DNA from: Brachyspira pilosicoli
GTDB lineage: Bacteria; Spirochaetota; Brachyspiria; Brachyspirales; Brachyspiraceae
NCBI RefSeq assembly: GCF_036997485.1
Contig: NZ_JAWLPU010000001.1
Location: forward strand, 310,001-374,000
DNA: 64,000 nucleotides
Direction: 5' to 3'
Both the position numbers and the translations under genes were made by a program. Shown one piece after another: positions 55,239 to 63,923 of the stretch; the first letter of the stretch is position 1; the number at the start of each line of letters is the position of its first letter. Under the pieces are notes generated by a model. It had not been told where the DNA came from, made no database searches, and worked only from the letters and a program-made list of their open reading frames with translations.

Positions 55239-55484
55239 ATGAAAAAAGGATTTATAATTTTGGTTTCTATAGCAATTATGGTATTTGGTTCTGTATCTTT
55301 ATTTGGATATGGTAGATGCTATGGAATGGGTTATGGCAGAGGATACGGCAGAGGTTATGGTATGGGTTGTAACTATGGATACAATGATAGATACAATAAT
55401 CAAGGATATGAAGGCAGATATTACAACCAAAGATTTAACGGATACAACGGATGTTATTATTACAATAATACATACGTAAAATAA
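55239..55484 (+). CDS. Exported GYG-rich small protein, copy 1
   Basis: An 81-residue protein with a signal peptide of about 22 residues (MKKGFIILVSIAIMVFGSVS then LFG). The mature part is almost all Gly, Tyr, Arg and Asn: GYGRCYGMGYGRGYGRGYGM, GCNYGYNDRYNNQGYEGRYY, NQRFNGYNGCYYYNNTYVK. It has three cysteines. No family is recognised. The next gene is nearly identical in DNA and protein, so this is a recent tandem duplicate. The ATG has AAGGGAG upstream. Low-complexity Gly/Tyr proteins are often surface or matrix components, but no role is shown. Confidence 0.75.
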   Translation: MKKGFIILVSIAIMVFGSVSLFGYGRCYGMGYGRGYGRGYGMGCNYGYNDRYNNQGYEGRYYNQRFNGYNGCYYYNNTYVK

Positions 55485-55525
55485 TAGAAATTAAATAAAA
55501 AACACACAACTAAGGAGAATTAAAA

Positions 55526-55771
55526 ATGAAAAAAGGATTTATAATTTTGGTTTCTATAGCAATTATGGTATTTGGCTCTGTATCTTTATTTGGATATGGT
55601 AGAGGCTATGGAATGGGTTATGGCAGAGGTTACGGAAGAGGTTATGGTATGGGTTGTAACTATGGATACAATTATAGATACAATAATCAAGGATATGAAG
55701 GCAGATATTACAACCAAAGATTTAACGGATACAACGGATGTTATTATTATAACAACCCATATGTTAAATAA
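55526..55771 (+). CDS. Exported GYG-rich small protein, copy 2
   Basis: A near-identical 81-residue copy of the preceding gene, with only a handful of residue changes (GRGYG where the first copy has GRCYG, YNYRYNN for YNDRYNN, NPYVK for NTYVK). The same signal peptide and ribosome site (AAGGAG) precede it. The shared sequence extends a few bases upstream, through CACACAACTAAGGAGAATT, which recurs before the third gene. Loss of one cysteine relative to copy 1 is the most visible difference. Function unknown. Confidence 0.78.
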   Translation: MKKGFIILVSIAIMVFGSVSLFGYGRGYGMGYGRGYGRGYGMGCNYGYNYRYNNQGYEGRYYNQRFNGYNGCYYYNNPYVK

Positions 55772-55830
55772 TAAAATAAAAAAATAATAATAAAATAAAT
55801 AAAAAACACACAACTAAAGGAGAATTAAAA

Positions 55831-56325
55831 ATGAAAAACATTAACAAAAAAGTATTAATATTAGTTTCTATAGCAATTATGGTATTTGGCTCTGTGTCTC
55901 TATTTGGACAATATGGTAGAGGCTATGGAATGGGTTATGGCAGAGGATACGGCAGAGGTTATGGTATGGGCTGCGGTTATGGTAGAGGATACGGCAGAGG
56001 ATATGGAATGGGCTGTAATTATGGATATGGAAGAGGTTATGGTGCAGGTTATGGTTACGGAAGAGGTTATGGATACAACAACCTTACTCAAGACCAAATT
56101 AACCAAATACAATCTATAGAAAGTAAATATTTCCCTCAAATAGATGATTTGAGAAGAGAAGTTTACAACAAAACTCAAACTATAAATTTAGAAATGAGCA
56201 AACAAAACCCTGACCAAAATGCTATAAATAAAGCTATAGATGACAGAGCTAAAACTTTATCTGATTTAGACAAATTAAGAACAGAGTTTTTCTTAGAAAT
56301 GGATAAAGTATTTCAAGTAAAATAA
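55831..56325 (+). CDS. GYG-rich exported protein with Spy/CpxP-like tail, copy 3
   Basis: A 164-residue relative of the two preceding genes. The same signal peptide core (LVSIAIMVFGSVSLFG) is followed by about 60 residues of GYGRGYGMG repeats, with cysteines in MGCGYG and MGCNYG. From residue 88 the sequence changes to a charged helical tail: LTQDQINQIQSIESKYFPQI, DDLRREVYNKTQTINLEMSK, QNPDQNAINKAIDDRAKTLS, then a helix to the end. LTQDQ plus paired helices with a Q/R/E pattern resemble Spy, CpxP and ZraP periplasmic stress or metal-binding chaperones. So this is a fusion of a repeat head and a Spy-like tail. Confidence 0.8.
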   Translation: MKNINKKVLILVSIAIMVFGSVSLFGQYGRGYGMGYGRGYGRGYGMGCGYGRGYGRGYGMGCNYGYGRGYGAGYGYGRGYGYNNLTQDQINQIQSIESKYFPQIDDLRREVYNKTQTINLEMSKQNPDQNAINKAIDDRAKTLSDLDKLRTEFFLEMDKVFQVK

Positions 56326-58398: not shown

Positions 58399-59913
<1,515 letters not shown>

Positions 59914-61353: not shown

Positions 61354-63546
61354 ATGGCAACAAAAAAAACAACAAATAAAGAAGAAGCAAAAAAATCTAC
61401 TGTAGCTAAAAAGACAACTACAGCAAAAAAAACTGCTAATAAAGAAACAACAGCTAAAGATTCTGCAAAAGAAACTGCTGTATCAAAGAAAACTGCTGCA
61501 AGTGTAAAAAAAACTGATACTGCTAAAAAAGATACACCCAAAAAAACTGCTGCAGTTAAAAAGACAACTACAACAAAAAAAACTGCTAATAAAGAAACAA
61601 CAGCTAAAGATTCTATAAAAGAAACTGCTGCAGCAAAGAAAACTACCACAAGTGTTAGAAAAACTGATACTCTTAAAAAAGATACTACTGCAAAAGTTGA
61701 AACAGAAACAAAAAAAACAGTAGCGCCTTTAACTTCTTTAAAAAAAGATAATACTCAAAAGACAATAGAAAACATATTTAAAAAAATGGCTGCTAAAGAT
61801 GATAGCACTGAATCAGCTGAAAAACAATCAAAAGAAAACTCTTTCACACCTCTAAGAACATCATCAACTATAAGAAAAATAGAACCAATAAAAACTACTG
61901 AAAGAACTAATGAAAGAGAATCAATAACTTTATTAAAAGAAGCTATAAGAGCTAAATCTAAAAATGTTTCAAAGCCTATAATAGCAAAAAAACACTTAGT
62001 TGTAACAGATGATAAAGTGGAAGAAAAAGAATCAACTATAGAAAAAAATGAATCTAATAACGAAATAAAAAGCACTAACGAAAACATTTTTAATAAAACA
62101 AGTGATATAGTAAACAATGTACTAAATAAAAAAGAAAATGAAATAGTTCTTAAAGAAAATAACGACAAACCGCAAACTTTAGAGGAAGTTGTAAAAAAAT
62201 ACAATTTTGATTCTTTTGATAAATATAAAGAAGATGTAAATGAAGAACCTCAAGAAATAAAAGAAGAATTAGAAAAAATAAAAAATGATATAGAAGGAAT
62301 AGAAGTAAAAACTGAAAATATAGAAACGGTAAAAGAAGAAACAACAGAACAAGTAAAAGAAGAAACTAAAAAAGAAGAAAAAGTAACATATACTAAAGGC
62401 GACATATTTAAAAATAAAAAAATTACTCTTCCTACAATAATGCAGCAAAATGTTAATGAAGAGTCAAAATTTAATCAGGAAGAAATAGATAAAGCAATAG
62501 AAAATGCCGCAGAAATAGATGATGATACTCCAGTAGAAGATTATCAAAACTATTCAAACAAAAAATTAAAAGAATTAGAAGAAAAAGATATAAAAATAAT
62601 AGAAACTGAAGAAGAATTAAAAACTTCTACTGTTATACCTGAAATAGAGAAAAAACCTGTAGAACCATATAAAGTTCCAGAACATTCAATTGAAAATAAA
62701 GAAGAAAACAAATCAAACAAGCTCATACCTATTATTGGTATTATAATTATAATATTAGGTTTGTCATTCTTAGGATTTCAATTCTTAACTTCTAAAAACG
62801 ATAATAATGATGATGGTTTCTACAATGTAGTTACAAATGAAAATGTCTTAACTAATGAAAATATTAATGAAATGACAAATAATTATGATAATTTATCTGA
62901 TATATCAAATATAAATGCTATCAGCAGCAATAAAAATAATGTTATAAGCAATCAGCAAAACAATAATACAAATAAGCTTATAACTAATAATAATATAGCA
63001 ACTAATAACAACATTACAACTAATAATCAAATAAATAAAATAACAAATGATAATCAATTAAAAACAAATAATACTCAAATAACAAATACAACAGCAGTAA
63101 AAACTAATATAATTAACACAAATGCCAATCCTCCAAAAGAGCCTGAATTACCTAACCCGCCTGTAATACCTGATCCGCCTACTCCGCCAGCAACGCAAAA
63201 TAATAATACTCAAAACAATACAGTTTCATATTTAGATGGTAATTTATATAAGACTCAGTGGACTGATACTTTAACTTCTATTGCCACAAAAGAGCTTGGA
63301 GATGCTAGAAAATGGCCTATGATATTTGCAGCTAATGATAATATATTTACAGACCCAGACAAAATAGTATTTAATGTAAATATAAAACTGCCTGATGATG
63401 GTAAAAAAAAAATTGAAGATATGAATGAATATGAAAAAAGAACATTATATAATGCTTACATAAAGGTTGCTGATAGATATATTGAACTTGGTAAGACTAA
63501 TATGGCTAATATAGTGAAAAATGCTGCTAATAATATCATAAAATAA
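61354..63546 (+). CDS. Lysine-rich repeat, transmembrane and LysM-domain protein
   Basis: A 730-residue protein in four parts. Residues 1-116 are Lys/Thr/Ala-rich, like histone H1 tails, with two near-identical 50-residue units (KKTTTAKKTANKETTAKDS, then KKTTTTKKTANKETTAKDS). Residues 117-450 are acidic and Lys/Glu-rich, probably disordered or coiled. One membrane segment follows at about 455-477 (IPIIGIIIIILGLSFLGFQF). After an Asn/Thr/Ile-rich linker and a proline-rich stretch (EPELPNPPVIPDPPTPPA), a LysM-like domain covers about 632-680 (TDTLTSIATKELGDARKWPM). Topology is N-terminus in, C-terminus out, so the basic tail is cytoplasmic and LysM periplasmic. Confidence 0.8.
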   Translation: MATKKTTNKEEAKKSTVAKKTTTAKKTANKETTAKDSAKETAVSKKTAASVKKTDTAKKDTPKKTAAVKKTTTTKKTANKETTAKDSIKETAAAKKTTTSVRKTDTLKKDTTAKVETETKKTVAPLTSLKKDNTQKTIENIFKKMAAKDDSTESAEKQSKENSFTPLRTSSTIRKIEPIKTTERTNERESITLLKEAIRAKSKNVSKPIIAKKHLVVTDDKVEEKESTIEKNESNNEIKSTNENIFNKTSDIVNNVLNKKENEIVLKENNDKPQTLEEVVKKYNFDSFDKYKEDVNEEPQEIKEELEKIKNDIEGIEVKTENIETVKEETTEQVKEETKKEEKVTYTKGDIFKNKKITLPTIMQQNVNEESKFNQEEIDKAIENAAEIDDDTPVEDYQNYSNKKLKELEEKDIKIIETEEELKTSTVIPEIEKKPVEPYKVPEHSIENKEENKSNKLIPIIGIIIIILGLSFLGFQFLTSKNDNNDDGFYNVVTNENVLTNENINEMTNNYDNLSDISNINAISSNKNNVISNQQNNNTNKLITNNNIATNNNITTNNQINKITNDNQLKTNNTQITNTTAVKTNIINTNANPPKEPELPNPPVIPDPPTPPATQNNNTQNNTVSYLDGNLYKTQWTDTLTSIATKELGDARKWPMIFAANDNIFTDPDKIVFNVNIKLPDDGKKKIEDMNEYEKRTLYNAYIKVADRYIELGKTNMANIVKNAANNIIK

Positions 63547-63923
63547 TGAAAAAAATCAAAAAGAAAAATGATATATTGGAATTCTCTTGTATAGGATGCG
63601 GACTATGCTGTAAAGAAAATGGATATGTGTATTTTTCTTTAGAAGATATAAAAAAAGCTTCAGAATATTTAAATATTAATCCTCTTGTATTTATAAATAA
63701 ATATCTAAAGCATAGCTACTCTCTTGAATATCATATAAAAGTTGATGAAGAAAATAAATGTCCTTTTTTAGATGAAAAAGACAAGTGTATTATTCATGAT
63801 GCCAAACCAAAACAGTGCCGCACTTTTCCTTATTGGAATGAATACATTGATAAAAATGGAAATTTAATATCTGGAAAATTTAAAAGACCTTGCCCAGGCA
63901 TTAAAACTAAAAGAAAAAAATAA
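63546..63923 (+). CDS. YkgJ family cysteine cluster protein
   Basis: A 125-residue protein of the YkgJ/CxxCxxCC family, thought to bind iron or zinc. SCIGCGLCCKENGYVYFS carries the first cysteine group, CPFLDEKDKCIIHDAKPKQC the second and RPCPG the last. FRTFPYW-type sequence (RTFPYWNEYI) is conserved. The start overlaps the LysM gene stop by one base (TAATG), so they are translationally coupled. Function is not established. The 77 bases after it are AT-rich and hold nothing recognisable. Confidence 0.88.
   Translation: MKKIKKKNDILEFSCIGCGLCCKENGYVYFSLEDIKKASEYLNINPLVFINKYLKHSYSLEYHIKVDEENKCPFLDEKDKCIIHDAKPKQCRTFPYWNEYIDKNGNLISGKFKRPCPGIKTKRKK

Follow-up and report, generated by a model that had tools for sequence, protein, structure and literature searches.

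The idea of a protein that bridges chromosome and cell wall is not new: Bacteroidetes proteins that combine HU-CCDC81 domains, a membrane segment and a SPOR domain were reportedly predicted by Burroughs et al. in 2017 to act in chromosome partition. As predicted chromosome-to-peptidoglycan bridges they resemble the protein described here, which we denote KTL (the 730-residue product of the gene at positions 61354-63546 of the window, the whole 64-kb stretch of Brachyspira DNA that was analyzed), but they are built from HU-CCDC81 and SPOR domains and belong to another phylum.

Each half of KTL has a characterized counterpart. Rv3852 of Mycobacterium tuberculosis contains H1/H5-like KAAK/PAAK repeats, is bound to DNA and is anchored in the membrane by a C-terminal helix (PMC8233713). 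As far as this source describes the protein, Rv3852 shares with KTL the cytoplasmic H1-like Lys/Ala-rich repeats followed by a membrane helix, whereas its helix is C-terminal and the portions of the source concerned mention neither a periplasmic linker nor a LysM domain; Rv3852 is further described there as confined to a few mycobacteria, and we claim no homology to KTL. FimV/HubP proteins comprise a periplasmic LysM domain, one membrane helix and an acidic cytoplasmic region; HubP localizes the chromosome origin, and FimV pulls down with sacculi, a property that is abolished by deletion of its LysM domain (PMC12918733). KTL likewise possesses a LysM domain, one membrane helix and a long acidic cytoplasmic region, but the LysM domain of FimV/HubP is N-terminal (reversed topology), and these proteins end in a FimV TPR domain and have no H1-like tail.

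According to the initial annotation, no characterized protein is known to show the arrangement seen in KTL. This calls for qualification, because Rv3852 and FimV/HubP each supply half of it. Judged by this comparison, KTL would combine Rv3852-type and FimV/HubP-type ideas in a new order. Our search of the literature retrieved no open-access paper combining 'HU domain' with 'LysM', and the papers found on Brachyspira and LysM were not about KTL. We propose that KTL is a type II inner-membrane tether between nucleoid, membrane and peptidoglycan, in which the tail would contact DNA and the LysM domain would contact peptidoglycan; we put the probability of this reading at slightly less than one half (about 0.48).

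Layout, topology and domains of KTL

The open reading frame, its composition, the profile match and the modelled fold confirm the layout first noted for this gene, in which a basic tail, an acidic segment, a membrane helix, an Asn/Thr-rich linker and a LysM domain occur in one chain (Table 1). Residues 1-125 contain 35 Lys, 34 Thr and 20 Ala. The acidic stretch contains 51 Glu and 15 Asp and carries the motifs TYxKxDIFK and IKIIETEDELK...PEIEKKPxEPY, which are conserved in the alignment. The linker comprises 40 Asn and 17 Thr among the 117 residues 476-592, and 11 Pro within residues 593-630. The last 100 residues of the protein form a compact domain. The genome from which the window derives belongs to the B. 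pilosicoli group of Brachyspira and has a size of 2.72 Mb.

Table 1. Coordinates of KTL, its operon and the related loci. Plain positions refer to the window; C and L prefixes denote contigs and loci.
Feature	Position	Strand	Basis
Operon gene 1, 250 aa	60597..61349	+	Weak HTH matches, conserved linkage
KTL gene	61354..63546	+	ORF, ATG start, 730 aa; homologues in Brachyspira and sister genera
Predicted cytoplasmic Lys/Thr/Ala-rich tail, residues 1-125, net charge +22	61354..61728	+	Composition
Conserved, predicted cytoplasmic island, residues 176-215, genus consensus ERESITLLKEAIKAKSKNVSRPVSVKK	61879..61998	+	Genus alignment
Long acidic, predicted cytoplasmic stretch, residues 216-456, net charge -26, probably disordered	61999..62721	+	Composition, alignment
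Single membrane helix, residues 457-475	62722..62778	+	Hydropathy, alignment, dN/dS
Predicted periplasmic linker, Asn/Thr-rich (476-592) and Pro-rich (593-630)	62779..63243	+	Composition
LysM domain, residues 631-683	63244..63402	+	NCBIfam PRK11198, AlphaFold2 model, PDB matches
C-terminal helical hairpin, residues 684-730	63403..63543	+	Model; aligns to HU-membrane-LysM proteins of other spirochaetes
Operon gene 3, CxxCxxCC (Fe/Zn-binding) protein	63546..63923	+	Pfam PF03692, E 2.6e-12; ATG overlaps KTL stop
Second protein of the window's genome, HU-like-membrane-LysM	C3:7115-8773 (= L152:5116-6774)	-	PF00216 partial, LysM-like
Two-gene units, free HU then HU-membrane-LysM	L163:5503-7195; L162:4634-6026; L165:4988-6341		

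The membrane helix has a mean hydropathy of 2.8 and is the sole hydrophobic helix of KTL. The initial annotation had allowed that a signal peptide might export the N-terminus and so undo its reading; no hydrophobic segment precedes residue 457 and no signal peptide was seen, and the tail is therefore predicted to be cytoplasmic. In the alignment the helix is flanked by invariant Lys453 and Lys456 on its N-terminal side and by invariant Asp487 on its C-terminal side, which fits an N-in/C-out orientation. From these sequence features we predict a type II (N-in, C-out) inner-membrane protein whose tail and acidic stretch reside in the cytoplasm and whose LysM domain resides in the periplasm.

The LysM part of NCBIfam model PRK11198 aligns at residues 627-681 (E 1.4e-7), whereas the short Pfam LysM model reported no match on the window protein; the KTL domain thus appears to be a divergent member. 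The last 113 residues were modelled with AlphaFold2 from 11 natural sequences (pLDDT 84.4, pTM 0.76); the model shows a strand-helix-helix-strand LysM fold followed by two long helices. Foldseek paired this model with LysM-containing chains at a probability of 1.00. With VIA-align, the Kbp LysM domain in GINKO1 yielded Z 6.7 and an rmsd of 1.3 Å over 54 residues; Z values for isolated LysM domains ranged from 4.5 to 5.0, that of GlcNAc3-bound CtCBM50 being 4.5. The LysM-like C-terminus suggested at the outset is therefore supported both by a profile match and by a modelled fold that matches solved LysM domains. On the strength of the model we assign the KTL C-terminus to the LysM fold, and the domain would bind peptidoglycan. 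Escherichia coli Kbp (YgaU), a BON-LysM protein, contributes the LysM domain that is the top match of KTL both in NCBIfam and among solved structures. KTL differs from Kbp in its membrane helix and tail and in that no BON domain was reported for it, and it scores only 32 bits against the Kbp family, for which the cut-off is 134.

The best 120-residue segment of the tail is composed of 72.5% Lys, Ala and Thr, compared with 34% for the runner-up among the 49 window ORFs of at least 120 residues. Because this content is far above that of every other ORF in this set, we rejected the explanation that the tail is a by-product of AT-rich DNA or codons. When 389 ORFs were ranked in the same way, the background being drawn from the window and related loci and not from the whole genome, the top entries were nearly all copies of KTL. 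Within the DNA that encodes the tail lies a tandem repeat of 150 nt (61375-61524 and 61525-61674, 85% identical).

The tail had been described as H1-like. Its basic, Lys/Ala/Thr-rich composition bears this out, but the Hc2 profiles fall below their curated cut-offs: Pfam HC2 (PF07382) scored 11.1 bits on the window protein against a cut-off of 40 (E 0.43), and NCBIfam Hc2 (NF038052) scored 25.3 on the homologue L060 against a cut-off of 135 (E 1.5e-5). The resemblance of KTL to H1 is compositional. Chlamydial Hc2 and histone H1 tails share its repetitive basic Lys/Ala/Thr-rich character but, unlike KTL, are soluble. Basic tails can also bind RNA, polyphosphate and anionic lipids.

Conservation, operon context and alternative functions

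KTL is present in 24 of 26 Brachyspira genomes and in three genomes (G026-G028) from two sister genera. The two Brachyspira genomes without it are drafts of 250-270 contigs that also lack the neighboring 250-residue gene, which makes a gap in the assemblies at this locus the probable cause. Brachyspira homologues are 46-84% identical to the window protein. In all regions and all KTL pairs dN/dS is below 1; KTL is under purifying selection. In view of this ratio, the occurrence in 24 of 26 genomes and the conserved operon, we rejected a spurious or decaying gene. Frame changes interrupt KTL in the assemblies G006, G009, G011 and G015; since neighboring genes are split as well in G011 and G015, sequencing or assembly indels are likely, and phase variation is possible.

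Constraint differs along the chain. The membrane helix is nearly invariant and among the most constrained parts of KTL (dN/dS 0.02-0.10), the LysM domain and C-terminus yield values of 0.05-0.19, and those of the tail are among the higher ones (0.22-0.55). Residues 176-215, ~343-352 and 407-445 form conserved islands that stand out from a fast-evolving background; the core of the first, LLKEA/LLREA, also occurs in the sister-genus homologues L097 and L096. Such islands suggest that KTL has protein partners, superfluous for a tether that binds DNA alone, and they favor the main rival to the tether, a HubP/FimV-type scaffold or landmark in the envelope. Here the LysM domain would fix KTL at wall sites such as the poles or septum, the islands would recruit clients, and the tail would act via proteins or lipids, not DNA. 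The near-invariance of the helix, which suggests partners within the membrane, points the same way, as do the LysM domain, single membrane helix and long acidic cytoplasmic region of HubP/FimV (PMC12918733); the ParB encoded in the window's genome, besides a YbaB-type protein, makes a ParAB client possible. Yet the Pfam scan reported no FimV TPR domain for KTL, the topology is reversed, and HubP-type proteins as described in PMC12918733 lack an H1-like tail. We consider this scaffold unlikely, although it is the strongest of the competitors.

Basic tail, acidic middle, membrane helix and LysM domain recur together throughout the genus and in the three sister-genus genomes. The sequence and length of the tail vary among species while its charge is kept. 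In 19 of the 20 listed Brachyspira ORFs the first 120 residues carry a net charge of +13 to +25 and the middle is net negative, while the remaining ORF, that of G009, has its tail region out of frame; in the sister-genus homologues the tail charge is +13 to +17. This drift at constant charge is expected if charge is what matters. It bears on the alternative that KTL is an ordinary membrane protein anchored to the wall, on which the expansion of a low-complexity repeat has been tolerated, the resulting tail binding RNA, lipid or nothing in particular. The tandem repeat, the differing lengths and the comparatively high dN/dS would all fit such an expansion, but the ratio is still below 1, nearly all Brachyspira species retain both the charge and the Lys/Ala/Thr composition (the sister genera retain the charge), and no other ORF examined has a comparably strong tail; we therefore regard an idle tail as improbable.

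KTL is the second gene of an operon. The stop codon of gene 1 lies 4 nt ahead of the KTL start, and gene 3 is followed in most Brachyspira genomes by a 483-residue HD-domain protein (PF01966, E 9.3e-9). The gene order is conserved across the genus, and the first three genes are also found in three genomes of two sister genera. Judged by its sequence, the gene 1 product probably consists of a winged-helix N-terminal part and a helical C-terminal part; its structure model was too poor (mean pLDDT 57.8) and gave no useful fold match. Homologues of gene 1 were found only in the order Brachyspirales among the 336 spirochaete genomes searched. Upstream of the operon lies a complete bacterial 16S rRNA gene (58400-59912, minus strand) that stands apart from 23S and 5S genes, there being no other Rfam match within the 64-kb window. 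At 55239-56325 we noted three tandem paralogues encoding small exported Gly/Tyr-rich proteins with MGYGRGYGRGYGMG repeats, the third of which ends in a helical part that recalls proteins of the Spy/CpxP type.

FtsN possesses a basic N-terminus, one membrane helix, a Gln-rich linker and a SPOR domain. A divisome or wall-synthesis activator of this type, whose cytoplasmic part makes contacts through short motifs and whose other end, beyond the helix and an Asn-rich linker, binds peptidoglycan and marks the septal wall, would accord with the parallel layout of KTL and with the SLT lytic transglycosylase gene that adjoins the gene 1 homologue in the sister family, but it is very unlikely, given that the Pfam scan reported no SPOR domain in KTL, that its cytoplasmic part of 456 residues far exceeds that of FtsN, and that the operon contains no division genes.

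HU-bearing proteins on the same plan

A profile of the LysM domain plus hairpin was searched against 345 spirochaete genomes. In a single protein of G072, a complete HU domain (PF00216, E 2e-20) is combined with a membrane helix and with LysM (E 5.9e-6); in G029, from the same order as Brachyspira, HU (E 1.4e-7) and LysM (E 2.7e-8) again share a chain. G044 encodes an HU domain (E 6.5e-24), a membrane helix and a LysM-like C-terminus, and so do Treponema-like genomes, a designation read from the sequences and not from a database label (HU E 1.2e-13 and 1.9e-14; the LysM domain is recognized by alignment and weak profile matches only). An acidic or disordered stretch often lies between HU and helix, as in G044 and the Treponema-like proteins. 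A free HU gene directly precedes the HU-membrane-LysM gene in G044, G153, G331 and G126.

By hhalign, the LysM domain and hairpin of KTL match the corresponding module of these proteins with a probability of 97.9 (E 6e-13, 85 columns). Accordingly, the HU-membrane-LysM proteins (L102, L162, L163, L165 and L099) have, as does KTL, one membrane helix and an alignable LysM domain with a helical C-terminus. On the cytoplasmic side they differ: a folded HU domain of the DNA-packaging type occupies the place of the basic tail, and the Pfam scan gave no match of PF00216 (HU/IHF) in KTL. The presence of HU-type domains on the cytoplasmic side of membrane-LysM chains makes a chromosome-to-wall link more plausible by analogy. 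A tree computed for the LysM module places KTL in one clade (100/98) that groups with short Treponema-type LysM lipoprotein-like proteins (92/86) and not with the HU-bearing ones; the tree comprises 118 columns with long branches and is weak either way. The HU-like protein of Brachyspira groups with its sister-family counterparts (95/78). The derivation of KTL from an HU-membrane-LysM protein by exchange of HU for a basic tail is thus unsupported; the shared plan looks parallel, and the HU proteins back DNA binding by KTL by analogy only.

The HU-like protein of Brachyspira is a second protein of this kind, found in 31 of 31 Brachyspirales genomes searched. Its 530-650 residues combine HU-like segments and an acidic stretch with a single membrane helix and with a LysM-like domain and its hairpin. 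In the window's genome its N-terminal HU match recurs twice. In most genomes, even the strongest single segment match extends over only about the first 50-55 of the 90 HU positions, and this protein may therefore lack the DNA-binding arms. It is also matched by HU models of the CCDC81 type, and annotation tools would recognize no more than a partial HU domain in it. Its partial HU domains are the only credible PF00216 matches in Brachyspira: a free canonical HU/IHF was found by PF00216 in none of the 26 genomes, whereas 9 of 14 control genomes gave a match. In the window's genome, PF00216 matched this gene on contig C3, not KTL, with one further match at chance level on C1. One Brachyspira genome encodes, close to its HU-like gene, a 517-residue coiled-coil-like protein (L160:656-2209, minus strand) that likewise starts with a short Lys/Thr tail, MAVKKTDTKKTSSEAKTT.

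A proposed tether between chromosome and wall

Taken together, the chromosome-to-wall reading of KTL is partly supported. In the proposed tether, the Lys/Ala/Thr tail would bind DNA regardless of its sequence, in the manner of H1 tails and Rv3852. The acidic segment, which is probably disordered, would provide a flexible spacer and, by competing with DNA for binding to the tail, may render the link weak and reversible, while the conserved cytoplasmic islands would recruit partner proteins. On the other side of the membrane, the Asn/Thr/Pro linker would carry the LysM domain to the peptidoglycan, where it would bind GlcNAc-containing glycan. Spirochaetes are very long, thin cells, and many weak links along such a cell could keep the chromosome in place, or spaced, against the wall. 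Two proteins of this kind appear to operate in Brachyspira, KTL with its basic tail and the HU-like-membrane-LysM protein.

More tentatively, spirochaetes may have repeatedly built one-chain bridges between chromosome and wall, joining an HU domain, a CCDC81-like HU domain or an H1-like tail to a membrane helix and a LysM domain; Brachyspira, apparently devoid of free HU, might rely on two of them and organize its nucleoid partly from the wall. The occurrence in Brachyspirales of two different proteins on one plan, together with the finding of no free HU in Brachyspira, renders the idea testable. It bears on how bacteria position and segregate the bulk of the chromosome: if true, a single polypeptide reaching from DNA to peptidoglycan would couple chromosome position directly to wall growth.
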